A stretch of 64,000 nucleotides of DNA from Desulfurispirillum indicum S5 (GCF_000177635.2 NC_014836.1:353501-417500); one strand, 5' to 3'. Counted from the first letter of the stretch, positions 42,912 to 55,533 are shown. A program made the numbers and translations. Notes: generated from the letters alone by a model not told the origin.

Positions 42912-43334
42912 GTGGAACAAACCCTGGACACCCTCAAAGCGCTTTCCGACGCCAGTCGCATGCGCGTTATCCTGGCGTTGTGCTCCCATGATGAGCTGTG
43001 TGCCTGCCAGCTGATTGAAATGCTGGACCTGGCCGCCGCCACTGTTTCCCGGCACATGGCTATTCTGCAGGAGGCCAATCTGGTGCGCAGTCGGCGCGAC
43101 GGGCGTTGGATGTATTATGCCATATCAGAGTCTTTTCCTTCGCTCCTTCACCACTGGCTCCAGGGGAGCACTCATGATTCTCCGCTGATTGAGGCTGACC
43201 GGCAGAAGCTGCGCAGGATTGTGCAGTGCGATCGCGCTGAGCTGTTCCGTGCCCAGGAGGCGCGCCGCAAGTGCTGCGAACAGCCTGAACCCTCAACCAA
43301 AGCACCTCACGCAACACAAGGAACTCACCAATGA
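42912..43334 (+). CDS. arsR: arsenical-responsive repressor ArsR
   Basis: The 140-residue winged-helix repressor carries two cysteines in [13 protein letters not shown] near residues 32-34, equivalent to the ELCVCDL arsenite site of classical ArsR, and a DNA-recognition helix ([23 protein letters not shown]). A further CC pair lies near residue 117 (RRKCCEQP). The start is GTG at 42912 behind AAGGAG. Its stop overlaps the acr3 ATG. Arsenite binding should release the operator just upstream. Confidence 0.92.
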
Positions 43335-44437
43335 AGAACTGTCCGGCGCAACCCCGCGTCAGCCACCGCATGACCTTTCTCGATCGCTATCTGACCCTGT
43401 GGATTTTTCTGGCCATGGCGGTGGGAGTGGGTCTTGGCTCCCTCTTTCCCGCTGGTATTGCCGCTTTTAATGAAGCTCTGACGGTGTGGGAACACACCAA
43501 CCTGCTGATTGCGGTCGGCTTGATCCTGATGATGTATCCGCCTCTGGCCAAGGTGAAGTATGGCCTTATGCCCAAGGTCTTTGCCGACTATCGCGTCCTG
43601 GGGCTGTCATTCTTCCAGAACTGGGTGGCGGGGCCGCTGCTGATGTTTGCGCTGGCGGTGGGTTTCTTTGGATTTCTCGCTCCGGCCGTGCTGGGCCCCG
43701 ACCCGCGCTGGGGATATTACATGGTGGGGCTGATTCTGGTGGGCATTGCCCGCTGCATCGCCATGGTGCTGGTGTGGAACCAGCTGGCCCGTGGCAGCAG
43801 CGAATACGCCGCCGGGCTGGTGGCCATTAACAGCCTCTTCCAGATCGTCACCTTCAGCCTCTACGCCTGGATTTTCGTCACCGTGCTGCCACCCCTGTTC
43901 GGTCTGGAGGGCATGGTGGTGGATGTGAGCATCGGGGATATCTTTGTCAGCGTCATGATCTACCTGGGTATTCCCTTTGCCGCCGGTATCCTCAGCCGGA
44001 TACTGCTGGTGCCAGCCAAAGGAGAAGAGTGGTACGAGAAGAAATTTATCCCCACCATTTCCCCCATCACCCTGGTGGCCCTGCTCTTCACCATCGTGGT
44101 CATGTTCAGCACCCAGGGGCAGCAGATCCTGCAGCGTCCCCTGGACGTAATGTGGATTGCCCTTCCCCTGATGCTGTACTTCGCCTTCATGTTTCTCATC
44201 AGCTTCTTTATGGCCATGAAGCTGGGGGCCGACTATCCCCGCACCACTTCCCTGGCCTTCACCGCCTCCGGTAACAACTTTGAACTGGCCATCGCCGTAG
44301 CCATCGCCGTTTTCGGTATCGGCTCACCCATCGCCTTTGCCACGGTCATCGGGCCACTGGTGGAGGTACCGGTGCTGATCGGTCTGGTGCACGTGAGCCT
44401 TTATTTCAAACGTAAATTCTTCGGAGAAACGCCATGA
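43331..44437 (+). CDS. acr3: arsenite efflux permease Acr3
   Basis: The 368-residue protein has ten membrane segments and the Acr3 signatures: [19 protein letters not shown], the essential cysteine C142 in [22 protein letters not shown], and the glutamate in [13 protein letters not shown] near the C-terminus. It expels arsenite using the proton gradient. Its ATG overlaps the arsR stop and its stop overlaps arsC. An ATG 39 bases inside could be the true start. Confidence 0.94.
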
Positions 44438-44871
44438 AAACCCGTGTTGGCTTTATCTGTGTGCACAACTCCTGCCGCTCCCAGATGGCGGAGGCCCTGG
44501 GTACGCTGCTGGCAGCCGATGTCTTTGAATCCTATTCCGCCGGAACCCATGTGAAACCGGCAATCAATGCCGATGCCGTGCGTATTATCCGTGAACTCTA
44601 TGGCGTGGATATGGCCAGAACCCAGCGCTCTAAGCTGCTCGGCGATATCCCTGAGCTGGATATTGTCATCACCATGGGCTGTAATGTGGACTGCCCCATG
44701 CTGCCCTGCAAACACCGGGAGGACTGGGGGCTGGATGATCCGACGGGGCAGAGTGATGAAGTGTTTGTGCAGACGGCCCGCACCATCGAAGCCAAGGTGC
44801 GGGAGCTGGCACGACGGATAGAGGCAGGCGAGTTCAAGAAGGAGCATTCGGTGAAGTGCCCCGAAATATGA
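44434..44871 (+). CDS. arsC: arsenate reductase ArsC, low-molecular-weight phosphatase type
   Basis: The 145-residue cytoplasmic enzyme reduces arsenate to arsenite for export. The CX5R phosphatase loop is C9-VHNSC-R15. Further cysteines C83, C87 and C92 lie in [22 protein letters not shown] and would relay the disulfide to thioredoxin. The cysteine spacing differs from S. aureus ArsC (C82/C89), so the exact relay is uncertain. It overlaps acr3 by four bases. Confidence 0.94.
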
Positions 44872-44883
44872 AAGGGAATCAAT

Positions 44884-46197
44884 ATGGTGTCCTGGAAAGA
44901 GGAGTGGAAACCCCTGTTGCTGATCGTGGCCAGTTTTCTGGTCATCGTCACACTCCCCCTGGAGTGGATGCAGCAGGGACAGCGTCTGGAAAATGCTCTC
45001 TGGGAGTCCCTGTATCTGCTTCGCTGGTATGCCCAGGAACACGTTATTCTCTGTCTGATCCCGGCGTTTTTTATTGCGGGAGCCCTGGCGGCTTTTCTCA
45101 ATCAGGGGGCCATTCTCAAATTCTTTGGTGCCCAGGCCAGCAAGTGGCTCTCCTACTCAGTGGCCTCGGTTGCGGGAACCCTGCTGGCAGTATGCTCCTG
45201 TACGGTACTGCCCCTTTTTGCAGGTATCTATCGCATGGGAGCCGGGCTGGGGCCTGCCACGGCCTTTCTCTATGCCAGTCCGGCCATAAATGTTATGGCC
45301 ATTGTGCTCACCGCCCGGGTATTGGGTTTTGAGATGGGTGTGGCCCGCGCCGTGGGCGCCATCGGATTCAGTGTTCTTATCGGCTTGTGTATGCATGTTA
45401 TTTTCCACAGGGAAGAGCAGAAAAAAAAGGCCATTCAGGCCCAGTTACCTGAAGCCGAAGCAAGTCGCCCCCTGGGGCAGAGCGCCCTCTTCTTTGGCGC
45501 CATGGTGGGCATACTGATCTTCGCCAACTGGACAGAGCCCGCTTCGGGCACGGGCATGACAGCCCTTATTTTCTCGTTGAAGTGGCTCATCACCACGGCA
45601 CTGGCCATATTGCTCGGCATCGTCATGGTTCGCTGGTTTGGTTTTCGCTGGCAGTACCTGGCCATGATTGCCCTCCTGGGAGCCTTCGCCTTTGCCCTTT
45701 TTCCCCAGGTGCCCCTGGTACCCTTTACCGTGGTGGTGGTTGCTCTTTCGTGGTTTCTCAGCCGCCAGGAAGGGGAGATGGGCACCTGGATACAGACTGC
45801 CTGGGATTTTACCAAACAGATCATGCCCCTGCTCTTTTTCGGCATCCTCATTGCCGGAGCTCTGCTGGGGCGCCCCGGGCAGGAAGCTCTGATCCCCTCC
45901 CACTGGATAACCAGCGTGGTGGGCGATAACTCCTTCCAGGCAAATTTTCTGGCAGCCGTGGCTGGGGCTTTCATGTACTTTGCCACCTTGACGGAAATCC
46001 CCATCTTACAAGGGCTGATGGGCAGTGGCATGCACAAGGGGCCAGCTCTGGCCTTGCTGCTGGCCGGCCCAGCATTATCCCTGCCCAATATGCTGGTTAT
46101 CAGAAGTATTCTGGGAACCTACAAGACCATGGTGTTCGTGGTGCTGGTGGTGCTTATGGCCACACTCAGTGGCATGATGTATGGGTATATATTCTGA
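44884..46197 (+). CDS. ArsP/UPF0718-type permease
   Basis: The 437-residue membrane protein has two permease halves. The first carries the CSC motif (LLAVCSCTVLPLFAGIYRMGAGLGPATAFLYASPAINV, about residues 97-135), typical of the ArsP_1/DUF318 family; some members export methylarsenite. A charged loop (HREEQKKKAIQAQLPEAEASR) separates the halves near residue 180. The second half has GAFMYFATLTEIPILQGLM and GPALSLPNML. It is 12 bases after arsC and, with the next thioredoxin-like gene, forms a pair common in ars operons. Confidence 0.85.
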   Translation: MVSWKEEWKPLLLIVASFLVIVTLPLEWMQQGQRLENALWESLYLLRWYAQEHVILCLIPAFFIAGALAAFLNQGAILKFFGAQASKWLSYSVASVAGTLLAVCSCTVLPLFAGIYRMGAGLGPATAFLYASPAINVMAIVLTARVLGFEMGVARAVGAIGFSVLIGLCMHVIFHREEQKKKAIQAQLPEAEASRPLGQSALFFGAMVGILIFANWTEPASGTGMTALIFSLKWLITTALAILLGIVMVRWFGFRWQYLAMIALLGAFAFALFPQVPLVPFTVVVVALSWFLSRQEGEMGTWIQTAWDFTKQIMPLLFFGILIAGALLGRPGQEALIPSHWITSVVGDNSFQANFLAAVAGAFMYFATLTEIPILQGLMGSGMHKGPALALLLAGPALSLPNMLVIRSILGTYKTMVFVVLVVLMATLSGMMYGYIF

Positions 46198-46213
46198 CTT
46201 TCGGGAGGCTAGG

Positions 46214-46447
46214 ATGAAAAAACTGCAGATTCTCGGTACCGGCTGCGCCAAATGCCGACAACTCACCGCGAACGCCCAGAAGGCCATTGAGGAAAGTGGT
46301 GCCGATTATGAGCTGGAAAAGATCACTGACATCAATGAAATCGTCAAGATGGGCGTCATGATGACCCCCGGCGTTGCTATTGATGGTGAGCTGAAATCGA
46401 CGGGAAAACTGTTGAGTCCGGCGGATATCAAGAAGCTGCTGGTGTGA
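46214..46447 (+). CDS. small thioredoxin-like protein with CxxC
   Basis: The 77-residue protein (MKKLQILGTGCAKCRQLTANAQKA; MMTPGVAIDGELKSTGKLLS) has the redox-active CAKC site at residues 11-14 and the cis-proline loop TPGV, matching redox-active disulfide protein 2. It probably keeps the permease or ArsC reduced, or carries arsenite. The ATG at 46214 has a GGAGGCTAGG site. It is the last gene of the ars operon. Confidence 0.9.
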   Translation: MKKLQILGTGCAKCRQLTANAQKAIEESGADYELEKITDINEIVKMGVMMTPGVAIDGELKSTGKLLSPADIKKLLV

Positions 46448-46455
46448 CACGAAAA

Positions 46456-46483
46456 GCCGATGCCTTGTTGCCTGGGCATCGGC
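46456..46483. terminator. bidirectional terminator between the ars and arsenic-sensing operons
   Basis: A perfect 9-bp stem (46456-46464 with 46475-46483) lies in the 61-base gap between convergent genes. The minus-strand side is followed by TTTT, so it best fits the leftward operon; it may also stop ars transcripts. Confidence 0.65.
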
Positions 46484-46508: not shown

Positions 46509-46991
46509 TCACTCAGGCTGGGGCTCTCGGTTCAGGCGCAATACTTCATAATACTCCCTGGCGGTATCTCCTCGGAGCGTCTTCATCATGCCCAGCATCC
46601 CATCGGTCAGGTAACGCGCCTCAAAGCCGTTGAGGACCAGGTAAAGCCTGGCTATGGCTGCCCGGTCGTAAATGGGACACATGGTGATGACAAGTTTGTC
46701 GCGGTCCAGCTCGTCGAGCCTCTGGGGGAGCTCATTGAGGGGAATATGCTTGGCGAAGGAAATGGAGTACATGGCGTGCTCCTCGTGAAACCTTATGTCA
46801 AGGAGCTGCGCACGGCCTTCCTCAAGGAGAAGGAGGCTCTCGAAGGAATCGATCTTCATGGCTCGACGCTCATGGTAATCAAAGGTTTCAAGATATTTTC
46901 CCAGGTTGTTGTTGTCAGGAAGCTGCTCACTGCAGGCGAAGAGCGGGAACAGGGTCAGGGCAAGCAGTGCAGAAAGAAGAGGGCGGGTCAT
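46509..46991 (-). CDS. lipoprotein with rhodanese domain
   Basis: The 160-residue product begins with a lipoprotein signal (MTRPLLSALLALTLFPLFAC, C20 as lipid site) and continues as a rhodanese domain with LLDIRFHEEHAM and the active loop C105-PIYD-R110. It should act in the periplasm or outer face, moving sulfane sulfur or binding oxyanions. Its ATG overlaps the response regulator stop by four bases, so it belongs to the sensor operon, an unusual place for a rhodanese. Confidence 0.85.
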   Translation of the reverse strand: MTRPLLSALLALTLFPLFACSEQLPDNNNLGKYLETFDYHERRAMKIDSFESLLLLEEGRAQLLDIRFHEEHAMYSISFAKHIPLNELPQRLDELDRDKLVITMCPIYDRAAIARLYLVLNGFEARYLTDGMLGMMKTLRGDTAREYYEVLRLNREPQPE

Positions 46992-47662
46992 GAGAGCTCC
47001 TTATGCTGGTGTCCGGTAATCAGCCCGTGTGCCAGGGCGTACCGTACCAGTTCTGACCGTTTTTTGGTTCCCAGAGACTCCATGATATTGGCTTTGTGGG
47101 TCTCGATGGTCTTGATGCTGATTCCAAGCTGATCAGCCACCTCCTGCTGGGTGTAACCCAGGGCGATGAGCTGGAGTACCTCTGTCTCGCGCTTACTGAG
47201 GGACGCTTTGGGCGGTGCTGCCTCAATCGTGTGGCCCGAGAGCTTCCGGCTTTTCTGGCGGGCGATATTTTCCATCAGCCCTCGCTGCAGGACAAACTCG
47301 CCCCGCTTGACGGCCCGGATGGCATTGATGAGCTCAGTGTCCGCCGCATTTTTCAGGATATAGCCGGCGGCACCAATATGCAGCACGCGCCCTACGTATT
47401 CAGGCTCATCGTGCATGGTGAGGAAGAGGATTTTCACCAGGCCGTGTTTGCGCAGGATGTCTTCGGCCAGCTCCATGCCGTTTTTGTCGGGCAGGTTGAT
47501 GTCCAGAATGATGACATCGGGTTTGCTGCTCTTGAGAATTTCCATGGCTTCGGCAGCGGTAGCGGCTTCAGCGACGATCTCCATGTCATCCTGGGCGCCC
47601 AGCAGCATGGCAAGCCCGCTGCGCAGGACAATATGGTCATCAACGATCAGTATTTTTATCAT
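46988..47662 (-). CDS. NarL/FixJ-type response regulator, candidate arsenate-respiration regulator
   Basis: The 224-residue protein has a receiver domain ([19 protein letters not shown], phosphoryl site D54 in VIILDINLPDKNG) and a LuxR-type helix-turn-helix near residues 155-215 (LSKRETEVLQLIALGYTQQEVADQLGISIKTIETH). The ATG at 47662 has GAGGAG upstream and lies 23 bases inside the kinase gene. It is the natural partner of that kinase. Divergent orientation to arrA makes arrAB a likely target. Confidence 0.9.
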   Translation of the reverse strand: MIKILIVDDHIVLRSGLAMLLGAQDDMEIVAEAATAAEAMEILKSSKPDVIILDINLPDKNGMELAEDILRKHGLVKILFLTMHDEPEYVGRVLHIGAAGYILKNAADTELINAIRAVKRGEFVLQRGLMENIARQKSRKLSGHTIEAAPPKASLSKRETEVLQLIALGYTQQEVADQLGISIKTIETHKANIMESLGTKKRSELVRYALAHGLITGHQHKELS

Positions 47663-49136
47663 CAGGTTTCTCCTCAGTGGCAAACTGCAATGGGACATTC
47701 ACGTATATGGTGGTTCCGGCTTCCCGGCTTGACTCTATCTGCAGGATGCCACCGATAATTTCGACGCGCTCCTGCATGCCGTGCAGGCCCAGGTGCTCCT
47801 TGTAGGCATCGCTGCTGAAGTGCTGCTCCACATCGAAGCCTTTTCCATCGTCTTCTATGACAAGATACAGTTGATCGGGTGTCAGGGTGAAGATGATACT
47901 GACATTGCGGGCCTGGGCGTGTTTGGAAATGTTGGTCAGGGACTCCTGAACAATGCGGTAGAGAGCAATTTCCAATTCTGCCAGCAGCCGCTTTCCGGTG
48001 TTCTGTCCATACACGACCATATCCACATCGAAAGAGCCATTGGATTGATATTCTTCACACAGGTGATTCAGGGCGGAAAAGAGCCCCATATCATCCAGTA
48101 TGCTCGGGCGCAGTTGACGGGAGATACGCTTCACTTCATGAATGGTGCGGGCAATCAGCGAGCGGATATTCTCCATCTCCTCCTGCATCTCCCCCGTGAT
48201 GGGTCGATCCTTCATGGATTGCAGATGCAGCATCAGCGAACTGAGCACCTGACCGGTTTCGTCATGGAGCTCACGGCTGATGCGCTTGCGCTCTGTTTCC
48301 TGGGCGGTAATTACCGTTTTCAGGAGCGTGCGCAGCACCTCTTCTTTCTTCTTCAACTCAGCCCAAAGGGTATCATTTTCCTGCTCCTTATTGTGCAGGG
48401 TAACGCCCAGCTCGTTAAACGCCTGGGCCAGAGTGCCAATCTGATCTTTCGTCTGCACCTCGACCCTCTGCCGGTAATTGCCGCGAGACATGCGCCTTGT
48501 TGCCTCCACCAGCAGGTTGATGGGCTGGTGGAGCAGGCTTGTGAGAATACTGGCAGCGAAAATACCCACAACCGACATCAGCAGGGTGGTCTGGGTTATG
48601 GTGATGACGACCTTGCGGATGGAAGCCTGGATATTGCGCTCGTGCAGGCCAACCCGGGCGGTGCCGATATTGCCGGTGCTGATGCGGCTGGAAAAATCGT
48701 GGATAATCTGGTCCTCAATGCGGACCAGGGCCTTGCCGGGTAATTCCTTGCGTCGTACGGCATCGTCATGAATACCCAGCAGGTCTATGGGGAAGCCGTC
48801 CCTGAAGGTGTGGGCAATGACCTGGCCCTGGTTGTCGAGGACAAAGGCGTACTCCACGTTGGAGTTGTTCTGGAGCGTATTGCGCAGCAGCTGATGGAGG
48901 GCGAAGATGTTACTGGTCAGCAGCAGATCAGCGCTGCGGGCGGAGAGGTCGCTGGCAATGGACATACCCTGCTTTTCCAGTTCATCCTGCATCAGGTTGC
49001 TGACGATGGTGCGCATCTCGAAGGTAACTCCAGCACCGAGGAAGAGGATAAACCCCACGGTGATGCACAGAACCTTGGCTTCCATGTTCAGGCGGTCGGC
49101 GATCCAGGTGAAAATATCCCAGGTTTTAGTCAGCAT
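47640..49136 (-). CDS. NarX-type sensor histidine kinase (HisKA_3)
   Basis: The 498-residue kinase has a membrane helix at 20-40, a sensory stretch outside the membrane to about 175, a second helix at 178-202, a HAMP region, and a HisKA_3 block with phosphoryl site H291 ([17 protein letters not shown]), then a HATPase ([39 protein letters not shown]). It overlaps the binding-protein gene by 11 bases. The arsenite-sensing AioS and ArxS kinases have similar partners but feed NtrC-type regulators; here the regulator is NarL-type. Confidence 0.9.
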
Positions 49137-50067
49137 GAGCGGTGAGCTCCAGTTCGCGTCTGAGCTGGCGAATGTAGTTGTAATGAGTGTCGTCCCCCAT
49201 GACAAAGCGATCAATGTACAGGATATCCAGGGCGTCACGTCCGGTTGGTTCGTTGTGCATATAGAGGAATATGCGGCGGATCAGCTCGAACTCTTCATCA
49301 CTCAGTCCCGGGCGCGCCACCACCGGCGGGCTGCCTACCATGGGCGAAACATGAACGACCTGCAGATTTTCTGTCAGTTCAGGATAGATAAGGGCAGTGG
49401 AATAAAACACCAGGCTGTCCATGGTGGCTCCATCGACGATGCCGTCATGCACGGCGCGCAGGGAGTTATCATGGCTGTAGGTAAAGAACGTGCTGGAAAA
49501 GTAGTTTTCCGGTGTTTCATTGATCTTCAGCAGCTCGCCCCGCAGTGCCAGGTGACCGGAAAAGGAGATAGGATCGGTAAAGGCAAAGCGCTTGCCCTTG
49601 AGCTGTTCCAGGGAGTGAATTTCGCTGTCCTTGCGGGTGATGACATAGGCCTGATAGGACGCATGGCCGTTTACCTGGGGGGCCGCCACCAGGCGGGCGC
49701 CAAGCTCAGAGGCCTTGACATAGGCCAGGGTGCAGATAAAGCCGATATCGACTTTTCCCGCTTCAATCAGATCATTGACTTCCTGGTAGGTGCGTCGCTG
49801 CACCAGTTTGATTTTACGGCCGAGCTTCTCTTCCAGGTGATCCAGCAAGGGGCCGTAGCCCCGCAGCGTTTCCAGGGGAGAGATCATGGAGGACACTGCC
49901 ACGCGGAAGACTTCTGGCTGGGTGGTTATGGGATCGGAATCTATGACCCTGCTGCTGTCGATCGCGATGATTTCCGTGTCGTTGAAATCAAGGCTGTTGT
50001 AGAGGGTGAGGCTGATCAAGAGCAGCAGGGAAACAGACCACAGCAGAATAATGACTTTATTGTTCAT
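49126..50067 (-). CDS. PhnD-like periplasmic binding protein, candidate arsenic sensor (AioX/ArxX-like)
   Basis: The 313-residue protein has an N-terminal membrane anchor or signal ([19 protein letters not shown]) and a PhnD/phosphate-phosphonate binding fold ([45 protein letters not shown]). The only cysteine is C112, in [12 protein letters not shown]. In Agrobacterium AioX a single cysteine at nearly this place is needed for arsenite sensing. First gene of a tight operon with kinase and regulator, so it is the probable input. The ATG at 50067 has AGGTG upstream; a GTG nine bases earlier is possible. Confidence 0.85.
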
Positions 50068-50388
50068 GGTGTACACCTGATTTTTTTCGTTATGGGTGCA
50101 AAGGTGGCAAATAGAATCTCAGTGGGAAATATAAAGGCTATTGGCGGGGGCGTCCAGTAGAACAAGGATTTTTCTTTGTGTGTCTATGTGGCTGTGAGGG
50201 AATGGTTTATTGGGTTTCTCGGGGTTTTCCCCTGAGCAAAAAGCTGGTTTTCACCGATGGTTTTTCACTGCTCACTCTCCTATCGTATGCATCACAGGTA
50301 TCCCATCTGCTTGGTGTCCTTGTGAAGAAAAGCTCTTCTCGCCAATGGATGAGTATCCCATTACCCCATCTATCTTAAGGAGGTAGAA
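50068..50388. promoter_or_regulatory. divergent control region between the sensor operon and arrAB
   Basis: This 321-base gap has no gene. For the leftward operon, TGGACG (50151-50156) and TATATT (50128-50133) are 17 bases apart on the minus strand. A small hairpin around GGGGTTTTCCCC lies at 50217-50235. No good sigma-70 or sigma-54 promoter is seen before arrA, which fits an activator-dependent promoter. A strong AAGGAGG precedes the arrA ATG. Confidence 0.5.
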
Positions 50389-52945: not shown

Positions 52946-53728
52946 ATGGCTAAATACGGAATGGTTATAGATCTGCTGAAGTGCGCTGGCTGCGGTGCCT
53001 GTGGCCTGGCCTGCAAGACGCAGAATAATACAGATGATCCGAAAGATGGGCAGACCTTCAACTGGGCGGACTACTGCGAGAGCATTGAAGGGAAATACCC
53101 CAATGCCAGGTACACCATGTACCCCACCCTGTGTAACCACTGCACCGATGCTCCCTGCGTTACGGCTTGTCCCGTTAACCCCAAGGCCATGTACAAAAAG
53201 GACAATGGCATCACCATGCACAATGAAGCCCGCTGCATCGGCTGCGGCATGTGCCAGTCTGCCTGCCCTTACACCGTTGCCAGCCTGGATGCCGACAAGG
53301 CGGCCAAGTACAATGTTATCCACATGAACCGTGGTGAGGTACAGGCGAAATACAAGGACAAGACCGAGCTGTTCAAGGGCTCCACGTCCGGCGCGGAAAT
53401 CGCGGCCAAATCCGGCGGAACGCCTCCCTACCGCACGGATTTCAGCCACCCCGACTACAATCCTGTGCGCGCCACCAACAAGGTGGAAAAGTGCATCTTC
53501 TGTGAGCACCTGGTGGCCAGTGGCCAGCAGCCCTACTGCTCCCAGGCCTGCCCATCAGAAGCCCGCACCTTCGGCGATCTGGACAACCCCAACAGCGAAG
53601 CCAGCAAGCTGCTCAAGCAGTATGCCAGCACCGCCGTCTGTCTGAAGGACAACAAGGGAGCTACCCAGAAGCCCGGTGAAGGCATCAAGCCGAATGTGAT
53701 CTACATCCGCAAGTATGCTGCGCGCTGA
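52946..53728 (+). CDS. arrB: respiratory arsenate reductase iron-sulfur subunit
   Basis: The 260-residue protein has 16 cysteines in four groups for four [Fe-S] clusters: C13-x2-C16-x2-C19-x3-C23; CNHCTDAPCVTAC; CIGCGMCQSAC; CIFC and C-x3-C in QPYCSQAC. No signal sequence is visible, so it should ride out with the Tat-exported ArrA. It passes electrons to the catalytic subunit. No membrane anchor (NrfD-like or cytochrome) follows, consistent with a soluble two-subunit enzyme. It lies 19 bases after arrA, with AAGGAGG before its ATG. Confidence 0.92.
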   Translation: MAKYGMVIDLLKCAGCGACGLACKTQNNTDDPKDGQTFNWADYCESIEGKYPNARYTMYPTLCNHCTDAPCVTACPVNPKAMYKKDNGITMHNEARCIGCGMCQSACPYTVASLDADKAAKYNVIHMNRGEVQAKYKDKTELFKGSTSGAEIAAKSGGTPPYRTDFSHPDYNPVRATNKVEKCIFCEHLVASGQQPYCSQACPSEARTFGDLDNPNSEASKLLKQYASTAVCLKDNKGATQKPGEGIKPNVIYIRKYAAR

Positions 53729-53786: not shown

Positions 53787-53859
53787 TTCCCTTTCAGCAG
53801 GGGATTTTTGTGGATGAGCGCAGAGCTTGAGTCCGGTGCTGAGAAGGAAACTCTTTTAT

Positions 53860-54522
53860 ATGGGGGATAGTCACGTGGAAATTTTCGAATATGCCCAGTA
53901 CGAAGCGCAGCGGGCCAATGGCTTCAAGCTGCTGGCGGCACTGTTCTATGAGCCGGAAAAGGAGCTGTTTACTTCCGAGAAAATTTTTGCGCAGCTCACC
54001 GAAATAGTGAAAAAGGTCTGCCCCGATGAGCTGAAGTTCTTTACGGCTCTCGAGCCTGCTTTGCAGAAATACCATGATCAGGAGCTCCTGGTGGAATATG
54101 CACAGCTGTTTGTGGGGCCGGCGGAACTGATTGCGCCACCCTACGGGTCGGTGTATCTGGACGAGGAGCGGCAGCTGATGGGGGACTCCACCCTGGAAGT
54201 CATCAAGATTTACCGCGAGAATGGTCTGTCCATTGACGGGAGCTTTAAAGACGCTCCCGACCATATTGTGGCCGAGCTGGAATTCATGTACTATCTGCTC
54301 TTCCAGGAGGCACAGTACCTGCAGATCAATGATCTGCAGAAGGCTCAGAACATCTCGCTGACGCAGCAGATGTTTCTGGATAACTTTCTGCTTCCCTGGT
54401 TGAAACCTTTTTGTGAGAATATTCTGAATGGTACCGATAATGAATTCTACTGCGCACTGGCAAAAGCACTGCGCGCCTACGCAGAGTCAACACACTGGAC
54501 GAAGCAGAGTCCATTTGAATAA
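53860..54522 (+). CDS. TorD/DmsD-type molybdoenzyme chaperone
   Basis: The 220-residue all-helical protein matches the TorD family (FKLLAALFYEPEKELF; LLVEYAQLFVGPAELIAPPYGSVYLDEERQLMG; DAPDHIVAELEFMYYLL). It would bind the Tat signal of ArrA and hold it for cofactor insertion, the role of ArrD. Starts at ATG 53860 (AAGGA upstream) and GTG 53875 (GGGGGA upstream) are both workable. It is separated from arrB by a terminator, so it may be expressed at a lower level. Confidence 0.88.
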   Translation: MGDSHVEIFEYAQYEAQRANGFKLLAALFYEPEKELFTSEKIFAQLTEIVKKVCPDELKFFTALEPALQKYHDQELLVEYAQLFVGPAELIAPPYGSVYLDEERQLMGDSTLEVIKIYRENGLSIDGSFKDAPDHIVAELEFMYYLLFQEAQYLQINDLQKAQNISLTQQMFLDNFLLPWLKPFCENILNGTDNEFYCALAKALRAYAESTHWTKQSPFE

Positions 54523-54537: not shown

Positions 54538-55533
54538 ATGATAGACCCCAATGCTTTGCTGGAGACGGTCAATCGCCTGGGCTCATCACTGCGGCTGGAG
54601 ACATCGCGGTGTCTGCGCATGCGGTTTTTCAAGAATGCCTGCCGCCAGTGCGTCGATATCTGTCCGGCAGAGGGCGCGATAGAGGTGGAACCGGCCCTCG
54701 TGCTGCGCCACGATGTCTGCACGGAGTGCATGCTGTGCGTTTCCACCTGTGTGAACGAGGCGATAGAGGTGAAATATACGGATTTTTCCCTGATGGTAAA
54801 GCAGCTCAGGGAGGTTGAGCAGCCCGTGCTCGGCTGTACGATTCGTGCCGGTGAGGTCAAGTGCCATGCCAGCGTTCCCTGCGTGGGTTTTCTTTCCACC
54901 GAACATCTGATTGCTCTGGGGCATTTTGTGAAAAAGCCGGTTCAGCTGAACCTCACCCGCTGTGCGGATTGTCGCAATGCCCCTGCACTTGAGGTTCTGC
55001 GCCAGCGGATCAAGGAAATTGGTCCGGCGGCCGGAGAGCTGCAATTGATCGACGATCCGGCACAGCTCAGGTTTCAGGAAAAGGCGGTGGGACGGCGCGG
55101 TCTGTTTACTTTTTTCCGGGAAAAGGCCACGGAGGAGACGGCGCGGATGTTCCACCAGCTCCATGGCGAGAGCTCACAGAGTCTCTCCTACAGCGATAAG
55201 CGCCTGCCTTTCAAGCGGCACCTGCTGAATCAGGTGGAAAAGCAGCAGCGCGCAGGGGAAGTCGATCCGGTGGTGGCGCGAGCCTATTACGGTGCCCGTG
55301 TCACGGAGAACTGCAACGTGTGTTCGGCGTGCAGTGCCATTTGCCCCACAGGCGCTTTGATTATGGAGGACGATAACGAAAGCGGCCTGCGGCGGCTTTC
55401 GTTTGCGTCAACGCTGTGTACGGGCTGTGGCGTATGCGCAGAGTTCTGCCCGAAGCTTGCCATCGGTATTTTTGGCTTACGTGAAGGGTCCGTGGAGCTT
55501 GAAGTGGTTGTGCTGGCGGAAGAAAATCCCTGA
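54538..55533 (+). CDS. polyferredoxin-like protein with four [4Fe-4S] motifs
   Basis: The 331-residue soluble protein has two cluster motifs near each end: C35-x2-C38-x3-C42 (with C25) and C61-x2-C64-x2-C67-x3-C71; C259-x2-C262-x2-C265-x3-C269 and C294-x2-C297-x2-C300-x3-C304. The middle holds five more cysteines (C100, C109, C115, C142, C145) that could bind another cluster. No signal is visible. It follows the chaperone gene by 15 bases. Similar genes sit beside molybdoenzyme chaperones in other anaerobes; the electron partner is unknown. Confidence 0.8.
   Translation: MIDPNALLETVNRLGSSLRLETSRCLRMRFFKNACRQCVDICPAEGAIEVEPALVLRHDVCTECMLCVSTCVNEAIEVKYTDFSLMVKQLREVEQPVLGCTIRAGEVKCHASVPCVGFLSTEHLIALGHFVKKPVQLNLTRCADCRNAPALEVLRQRIKEIGPAAGELQLIDDPAQLRFQEKAVGRRGLFTFFREKATEETARMFHQLHGESSQSLSYSDKRLPFKRHLLNQVEKQQRAGEVDPVVARAYYGARVTENCNVCSACSAICPTGALIMEDDNESGLRRLSFASTLCTGCGVCAEFCPKLAIGIFGLREGSVELEVVVLAEENP

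Follow-up and report, generated by a model that had tools for sequence, protein, structure and literature searches.

A rhodanese gene behind the arrXSR arsenate-sensor genes of Desulfurispirillum indicum S5, a probable operon accessory

Desulfurispirillum indicum S5, a bacterium able to use arsenate, selenate, nitrate and nitrite for growth (PMC3368425), carries an arsenate-respiration island in the 64,000-nucleotide stretch NC_014836.1:353501-417500 (GCF_000177635.2; hereafter the window, with positions counted from its first letter). On its minus strand, divergent from the arsenate reductase genes arrAB, lie four overlapping genes for a PhnD-like protein (arrX), a NarX-type kinase (arrS), a NarL-type regulator (arrR) and a rhodanese. 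The question raised by this locus is whether the rhodanese is built into the arsenic sensor, as an initial annotation of the sequence had proposed, or is an addition to a sensor already known. We favor the latter and give a probability of about 0.7 to the reading that the four genes are the island's arrXSR regulatory operon plus one further gene downstream, whose product would be an accessory with a role in sulfane-sulfur transfer.

The ArrX-ArrS-ArrR trio and its candidate operator

The layout that had been described, with overlaps of 11 bases (arrX/arrS), 23 bases (arrS/arrR) and 4 bases (arrR/rhodanese, as ATGA), was borne out by the open reading frames and by the Pfam matches (Table 1; the upper coordinate of each of the four genes is its ATG). 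Clear Shine-Dalgarno sequences precede arrR (gaggag) and the rhodanese gene (aaggag), and a weaker one precedes arrS (ggag). The ATG of arrX, with aggtg upstream, is its most likely start, the alternative GTG being less likely. Together with the overlaps and ribosome-binding sites, the single terminator behind the rhodanese gene argues for one arrXSR-rhodanese unit, and the rhodanese would be its last gene, as had been claimed.

By orthology, the trio is the already known arrXSR arsenate sensor system, its counterpart being that of Chrysiogenes arsenatis. Published arrXSR systems possess a CitB/FixJ-like, non-NtrC ArrR and occur in Chrysiogenes/Chrysiogenetes and Firmicutes (Badilla et al. 2018, PMC5908839). 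The window holds the same combination of an ArrX orthologue with an intact pocket, the X-S-R order beside arrAB and a non-NtrC ArrR, which supports the earlier prediction of an arsenic-oxyanion sensor for arrAB. The C. arsenatis locus (PMC5908839; ArrX structure 6x6b and others) has the same divergent X-S-R / arrA-arrB order, the same pocket and the same FixJ-like element before arrA, and its X, S and R proteins are 62, 62 and 73% identical to those of D. indicum; it differs behind arrR, where an 853-residue SBP_bac_3/PAS/GGDEF/EAL gene stands in place of a rhodanese. Across the two sister genera, identities are 75% and 62% for ArrS and 78% and 73% for ArrR. ArrS was found to possess two membrane spans (hydrophobic at ~16-45 and ~175-204), a cache-like periplasmic domain and an ELHD H-box at 289. 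The trio extends the published system to a second genus and allows its likely operator to be viewed across three.

In phmmer searches, ArrX matched several PDB entries of ArrX (6x6b, 9e-117), whose aligned chain reads as the C. arsenatis protein, and, far more weakly, AioX (4e-34) and transport proteins; it is closer to C. arsenatis ArrX than to AioX. All seven AioX pocket residues (Y88, C106, Y131, S161, S163, H192, D210) are present in ArrX as Y94, C112, Y138, S168, S170, H199 and D217. For comparison, X loci were gathered from Chrysiogenaceae/Deferribacterota, Bacillota, Chloroflexota, Methanoperedens and others, and then annotated. Across 78 X proteins the seven residues are nearly invariant, with one Ser alternating with Thr, and the cysteine is present in all 21 of the arrA-linked X proteins. 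The single cysteine of ArrX (residue 115 in a 316-residue reading, 112 counted from ATG 50067) is therefore expected; it is the conserved pocket cysteine and was rejected as a peculiarity.

Upstream of arrA, the block TTTYYCCTGAG...ACCGAT is a candidate ArrR operator. The pattern TTTYYCCTGAGN{15,17}ACCGAT has exactly one match in each of three Chrysiogenaceae genomes, every time before arrA, and 0 matches in the reversed controls of the three; as it was derived from these sites, its presence there is by construction, while its uniqueness is not. A FixJ-like site, tcaggtttttccctga, was reported before arrA of C. arsenatis (PMC5908839); the C. arsenatis genome (G001) carries it exactly, and the window element corresponds to it. 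It was also noted that half of the arrA element has a look-alike, tttcccactgag, at 50115-50128 on the minus strand and oriented toward arrX; this may be a site of autoregulation.

The trio had been set against the aio and arx systems of arsenite oxidizers, and for these the contrast stands. Like arrXSR, aioXSR and arxXSR combine a PhnD-type oxyanion sensor, a kinase and a regulator beside a molybdoenzyme, with the same pocket residues, but they have NtrC-type (AtoC family) regulators and RpoN promoters and bind arsenite (PMC5908839). A sensor-kinase-regulator module (XSR) of non-NtrC type is not unusual, however; it was rejected as a novelty, being both published (PMC5908839) and common among the surveyed X loci. 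NarX/NarL-type S and R accompany approximately 48 of the 78 X genes; at least 11 of these have a true arrA as neighbor, and for 30 the neighboring molybdoenzyme is a different one, mostly TtrA-like. Such trios were encountered beside molybdoenzymes throughout Bacillota and Chloroflexota, and long NtrC-type regulators with HisKA kinases were encountered beside arrA in Deferribacterota. By this survey, NarL-type XSR is common outside Proteobacteria. Weak family matches, far below cut-off, also relate the trio to tetrathionate sensing by TtrSR, which shares a PhnD-like sensing domain and a LuxR-type regulator; it differs in that TtrS has the PhnD-like part fused to the kinase.

The rhodanese and its linkage to XSR genes

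The fourth gene encodes an exported, probably lipid-anchored rhodanese with its catalytic cysteine in a CX4R loop, the loop length usual for sulfurtransferases; the Cys and Arg are invariant in five homologues. The GlpE family model matched at 9e-8, below its cut-off, and solved rhodaneses were also matched. For an AlphaFold2 model (predicted local distance difference test score 76), the top Foldseek matches were single-domain rhodaneses and the rhodanese domains of persulfide reductases, with no Cdc25/Acr2-type structure among the 50 matches listed. GlpE, PspE and the NPSR rhodanese domain possess the same fold and CX4R loop; the window protein differs from them in being exported and probably lipid-anchored, in its CPIYDR loop and in its place within an arsenate-sensor operon.

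Among relatives, the four-gene order beside arrA was found in 0 of 2 sister genera, and X-S-R-rhodanese was rejected as a conserved arr system. The closest homologue, from the sister genus of genome G002 (68% over 130 residues, same loop), has a signal peptide without a lipobox cysteine and is encoded on another contig, beside ClpB-like and restriction-like genes. Because the SBP_bac_3-PAS-GGDEF-EAL gene occupies this place in C. arsenatis (L037:5436-7997), what follows arrR differs from one genus to another. At other arr loci, the rhodaneses encountered were only a divergent three-domain lipoprotein and a fragment (L081 and L169, below). As far as can be seen, the four-gene order is specific to the D. 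indicum lineage. We found no literature linking a rhodanese to arrXSR, and in plasmid searches the rhodanese matches were all generic domains and the PhnD matches all distant. In Deferribacterota, cytosolic-looking homologues (L042:9807-10867 and L043) have CcdA-like, thioredoxin-lipoprotein-like and TSUP-like genes close by, named by sequence reading alone; these neighborhoods hint at an earlier function involving sulfur or disulfides.

Exported rhodaneses were nevertheless found to recur beside XSR trios. A rhodanese lies within two genes at 4 of 74 XSR loci outside the window, and among 565 genes farther away there is none (Fisher test; p = 0.009, indicative only, the 74 loci not being independent). 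The scan used a home-made rhodanese hidden Markov model and greedy open reading frame calls, by which divergent rhodaneses may be missed; Pfam confirmed the rhodanese at all four loci. In L015, from Anaerolineae, the order is X-S-R-rhodanese lipoprotein-ttrB-nrfD-ttrA-like. L081, from Deferribacterota and with arrABD present, has a three-domain rhodanese lipoprotein divergent from arrX, and in L086 an exported two-domain rhodanese lies between a TtrA-like gene and X. L169, also with arrABD, has a C-terminal rhodanese fragment behind arrR and then a transposase-like open reading frame; it was rejected as a repeat of the four-gene order and counted as a remnant.

Orthologues of the L015 rhodanese occur in 17 of 396 Anaerolineae genomes. 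Fifteen are next to or near molybdoenzyme genes (TtrA/B-like), the other two being on short contigs, and for at least 10 of the 17 the contig also carries X, S or R genes; two layouts occur. Similar to D. indicum, the operons L015, L197, L198, L199 and L203 place a NarX/NarL-type XSR directly before an exported rhodanese; they differ in the rhodanese subfamily (~228 residues, loop CHTQKR, clear lipobox) and in a reductase that is TtrA-like, not ArrA. In the second layout (L205, L206, L207, L209, L211), the gene behind that of the rhodanese lipoprotein encodes a ~745-residue B12-binding radical SAM protein, with an FmdE-like protein also in L206 and L211 and acr3 also in L205.

In a tree whose long branches leave deep placements unsure, the window rhodanese groups with Chrysiogenaceae/Deferribacterota rhodaneses that have no XSR link (support 100/98), apart from the Anaerolineae group. 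Because the tree separates it from these XSR-linked proteins, the pairing looks convergent, which suggests that exported rhodaneses were recruited to XSR loci independently. What is new here is the recurrence itself, together with a rhodanese lipoprotein, unrelated to that of the window, that appears to be a regular part of Anaerolineae XSR/TtrA-like operons.

Proposed role of the rhodanese and its alternatives

AioX and ArxX use these pocket residues to bind arsenite; for C. arsenatis ArrX, binding of arsenate (dissociation constant 1 uM) and phosphate (150 uM) but none of arsenite is published (PMC5908839). From this published relative and the strong conservation, we infer that periplasmic ArrX would bind arsenate in its Cys/Tyr/Ser/His/Asp pocket and signal to the membrane kinase ArrS, which would phosphorylate ArrR; ArrR would bind the conserved element and switch on arrAB. 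The rhodanese would be translated from the arrXSR unit, exported and tethered to the membrane as an operon accessory outside the sensor core. Most likely it would act as a periplasmic sulfane-sulfur transferase on thiosulfate, polysulfide or monothioarsenate, where arsenate respiration meets sulfide. Monothioarsenate resembles, and is isosteric with, thiosulfate, and in one Thioalkalivibrio strain a rhodanese gene near arx/ars is induced by 5 mM arsenite (PMC6620896). By analogy with the release of sulfite from thiosulfate, monothioarsenate would yield arsenite on giving up its sulfur; this favors a detoxification or sulfur-handling role over one of feeding the arsenate sensor. The initial annotation had suggested that the rhodanese may process thioarsenate or sulfane sulfur at the sensing site, or tune sensing; the arsenite released from thioarsenate would not be an ArrX ligand, which speaks against this. 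A built-in sensing role is likewise disfavored, as the sister genera have arrXSR without the rhodanese and one keeps the orthologue elsewhere.

Three observations weigh against an accessory with sulfur-transfer activity. The CPIYDR loop is a bulky one without the glycines that active rhodaneses usually have, and activity is therefore not certain. The lipobox LFAC is imperfect (Phe at -2, Pro at -4); of the lipid-anchored rhodanese described earlier, the fold and the exported N-terminus hold, and the anchor is probable only. Finally, the gene is beside arrXSR in neither C. arsenatis nor G002.

The rhodanese may instead be a passenger, a general periplasmic sulfurtransferase whose gene was brought behind arrR by a rearrangement and benefits from the promoter there, with no arsenic-specific role. 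We consider this a serious possibility, though short of even odds, and rate it nearly as likely as the periplasmic sulfane-sulfur transfer role. The unrelated location of the G002 orthologue and the rhodanese-free arr locus of C. arsenatis agree with it, as do the nearest Deferribacterota homologues, which stand beside CcdA-like and TSUP-like genes rather than XSR and with which the tree places the window protein. Against it, the gene has the ATGA overlap and its own strong ribosome-binding site, and unrelated exported rhodaneses lie beside XSR in other lineages above the expectation from neighboring genes.

Direct tuning of the sensor, by persulfidation of the single ArrX cysteine or removal of sulfur from thioarsenate at the sensor, is improbable. 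The shared operon and compartment, the invariance of the pocket cysteine in arrA-linked X proteins and the X-S-R-rhodanese order in Anaerolineae would fit; most XSR modules, however, those of the two sister genera among them, function with no rhodanese linked to them, and monothioarsenate would yield arsenite, which ArrX does not bind. It is very improbable that the trio senses arsenite, the ligand once considered for ArrX: AioX and ArxX do take arsenite in a pocket with these residues, but the closer protein, 62% identical C. arsenatis ArrX, bound arsenate and phosphate and no arsenite. An Acr2-type arsenate reductase was rejected; Acr2 proteins share the rhodanese/Cdc25 fold and the gene sits in an arsenic island, but Cdc25/Acr2 loops are CX5R whereas this one is CX4R, the top Foldseek matches are rhodaneses and persulfide reductases, and the protein is exported.

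In sulfidic sediments, arsenic is mobilized by arsenate respiration, and thioarsenates are among its major forms; we know of no established enzyme dedicated to them. A concrete and testable candidate would be a sulfur-transfer protein encoded in an arsenate-sensor operon and paralleled by an unrelated protein in the reductase operons of Chloroflexota. The point worth following is that exported rhodaneses are repeatedly associated with reductases under XSR control. A doubtful extension is that such rhodaneses were recruited more than once (in Chrysiogenaceae, Deferribacterota and Anaerolineae) as a working part of these operons, linking the respiration of oxyanions of arsenic or sulfur to the chemistry of sulfane sulfur (thiosulfate, polysulfide, monothioarsenate); D. 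indicum would then strip or exchange sulfur on periplasmic thioarsenates under arsenate-sensor control.

Neighboring genes and further XSR modules

The best family of the arrA product is NCBIfam ArrA over its whole length (next family, 266 bits), with a score below the curated cut-off of 1600, as is also the case for both sister-genus ArrA proteins. Among the convergent resistance genes, acr3 matched TIGR00832 (405 bits), the permease ArsP_1 (8e-71) and the thioredoxin-like gene Thioredoxin_3 (9e-26); the arsR-like and arsC-like genes were named by reading the sequence.

Table 1. Positions of the arr genes, their regulatory elements and neighbors in the window
Feature	Position	Strand	Evidence and remarks
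Arsenic resistance genes: arsR-like, acr3, arsC-like, ArsP_1-type permease, thioredoxin-like	42912..46447	+	convergent
Intrinsic terminator	46452..46483	-	9-bp stem then TTTT; -22.7 kcal/mol, z = -4.7; closes the arrXSR-rhodanese unit
Rhodanese, exported, probably lipid-anchored, single-domain, 160 aa	46509..46991	-	PF00581 2e-8; C105-PIYD-R110 loop
arrR, NarL/FixJ-type response regulator, 224 aa	46988..47662	-	Response_reg 3e-28, GerE 5e-19 (LuxR/NarL type)
arrS, NarX-type membrane histidine kinase, 498 aa	47640..49136	-	Pfam HisKA_3 7e-14, HATPase_c, HAMP
arrX, predicted PhnD-type periplasmic arsenate-binding sensor, 313 aa	49126..50067	-	PF12974 Phosphonate-bd 2e-62; alternative GTG start 50076
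Conserved element CGGGGTTTTCCCCTGAG ... ACCGAT, candidate ArrR operator/promoter	50220..50258	+	upstream of arrA; aligned in three genera
arrA, respiratory arsenate reductase catalytic subunit, 845 aa	50389..52926	+	NF041714 1052 bits; solved ArrA 6cz7 E 1e-276
arrB, iron-sulfur subunit	52946..53728	+	NF041715 212 bits, best family
TorD-like chaperone	53842..54522	+	PF02613 6e-31
Polyferredoxin-like protein, downstream of arrAB	54538..55533	+	Fer4 domains

Another XSR-like sensor was noted in the same genome (L038:6692-10615, ~21.7-25.6 kb), with a second PhnD-like protein (27% identical to ArrX), a HisKA kinase and a 494-residue, possibly NtrC-type open reading frame. Among the sampled Bacillota, Chloroflexota and Deferribacterota, full-pocket XSR modules, cysteine included, comprise 46 X proteins beside TtrA-like molybdoenzymes (for example L015, L088, L094, L100, L142 and L156) compared to 21 beside ArrA; this would mean that arsenic is a substrate for the TtrA-like enzymes or, alternatively, that the pocket accommodates other oxyanions too. 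In Candidatus Methanoperedens (L010, L011), two tandem arrXSR-like modules lie between two arrA-like operons.

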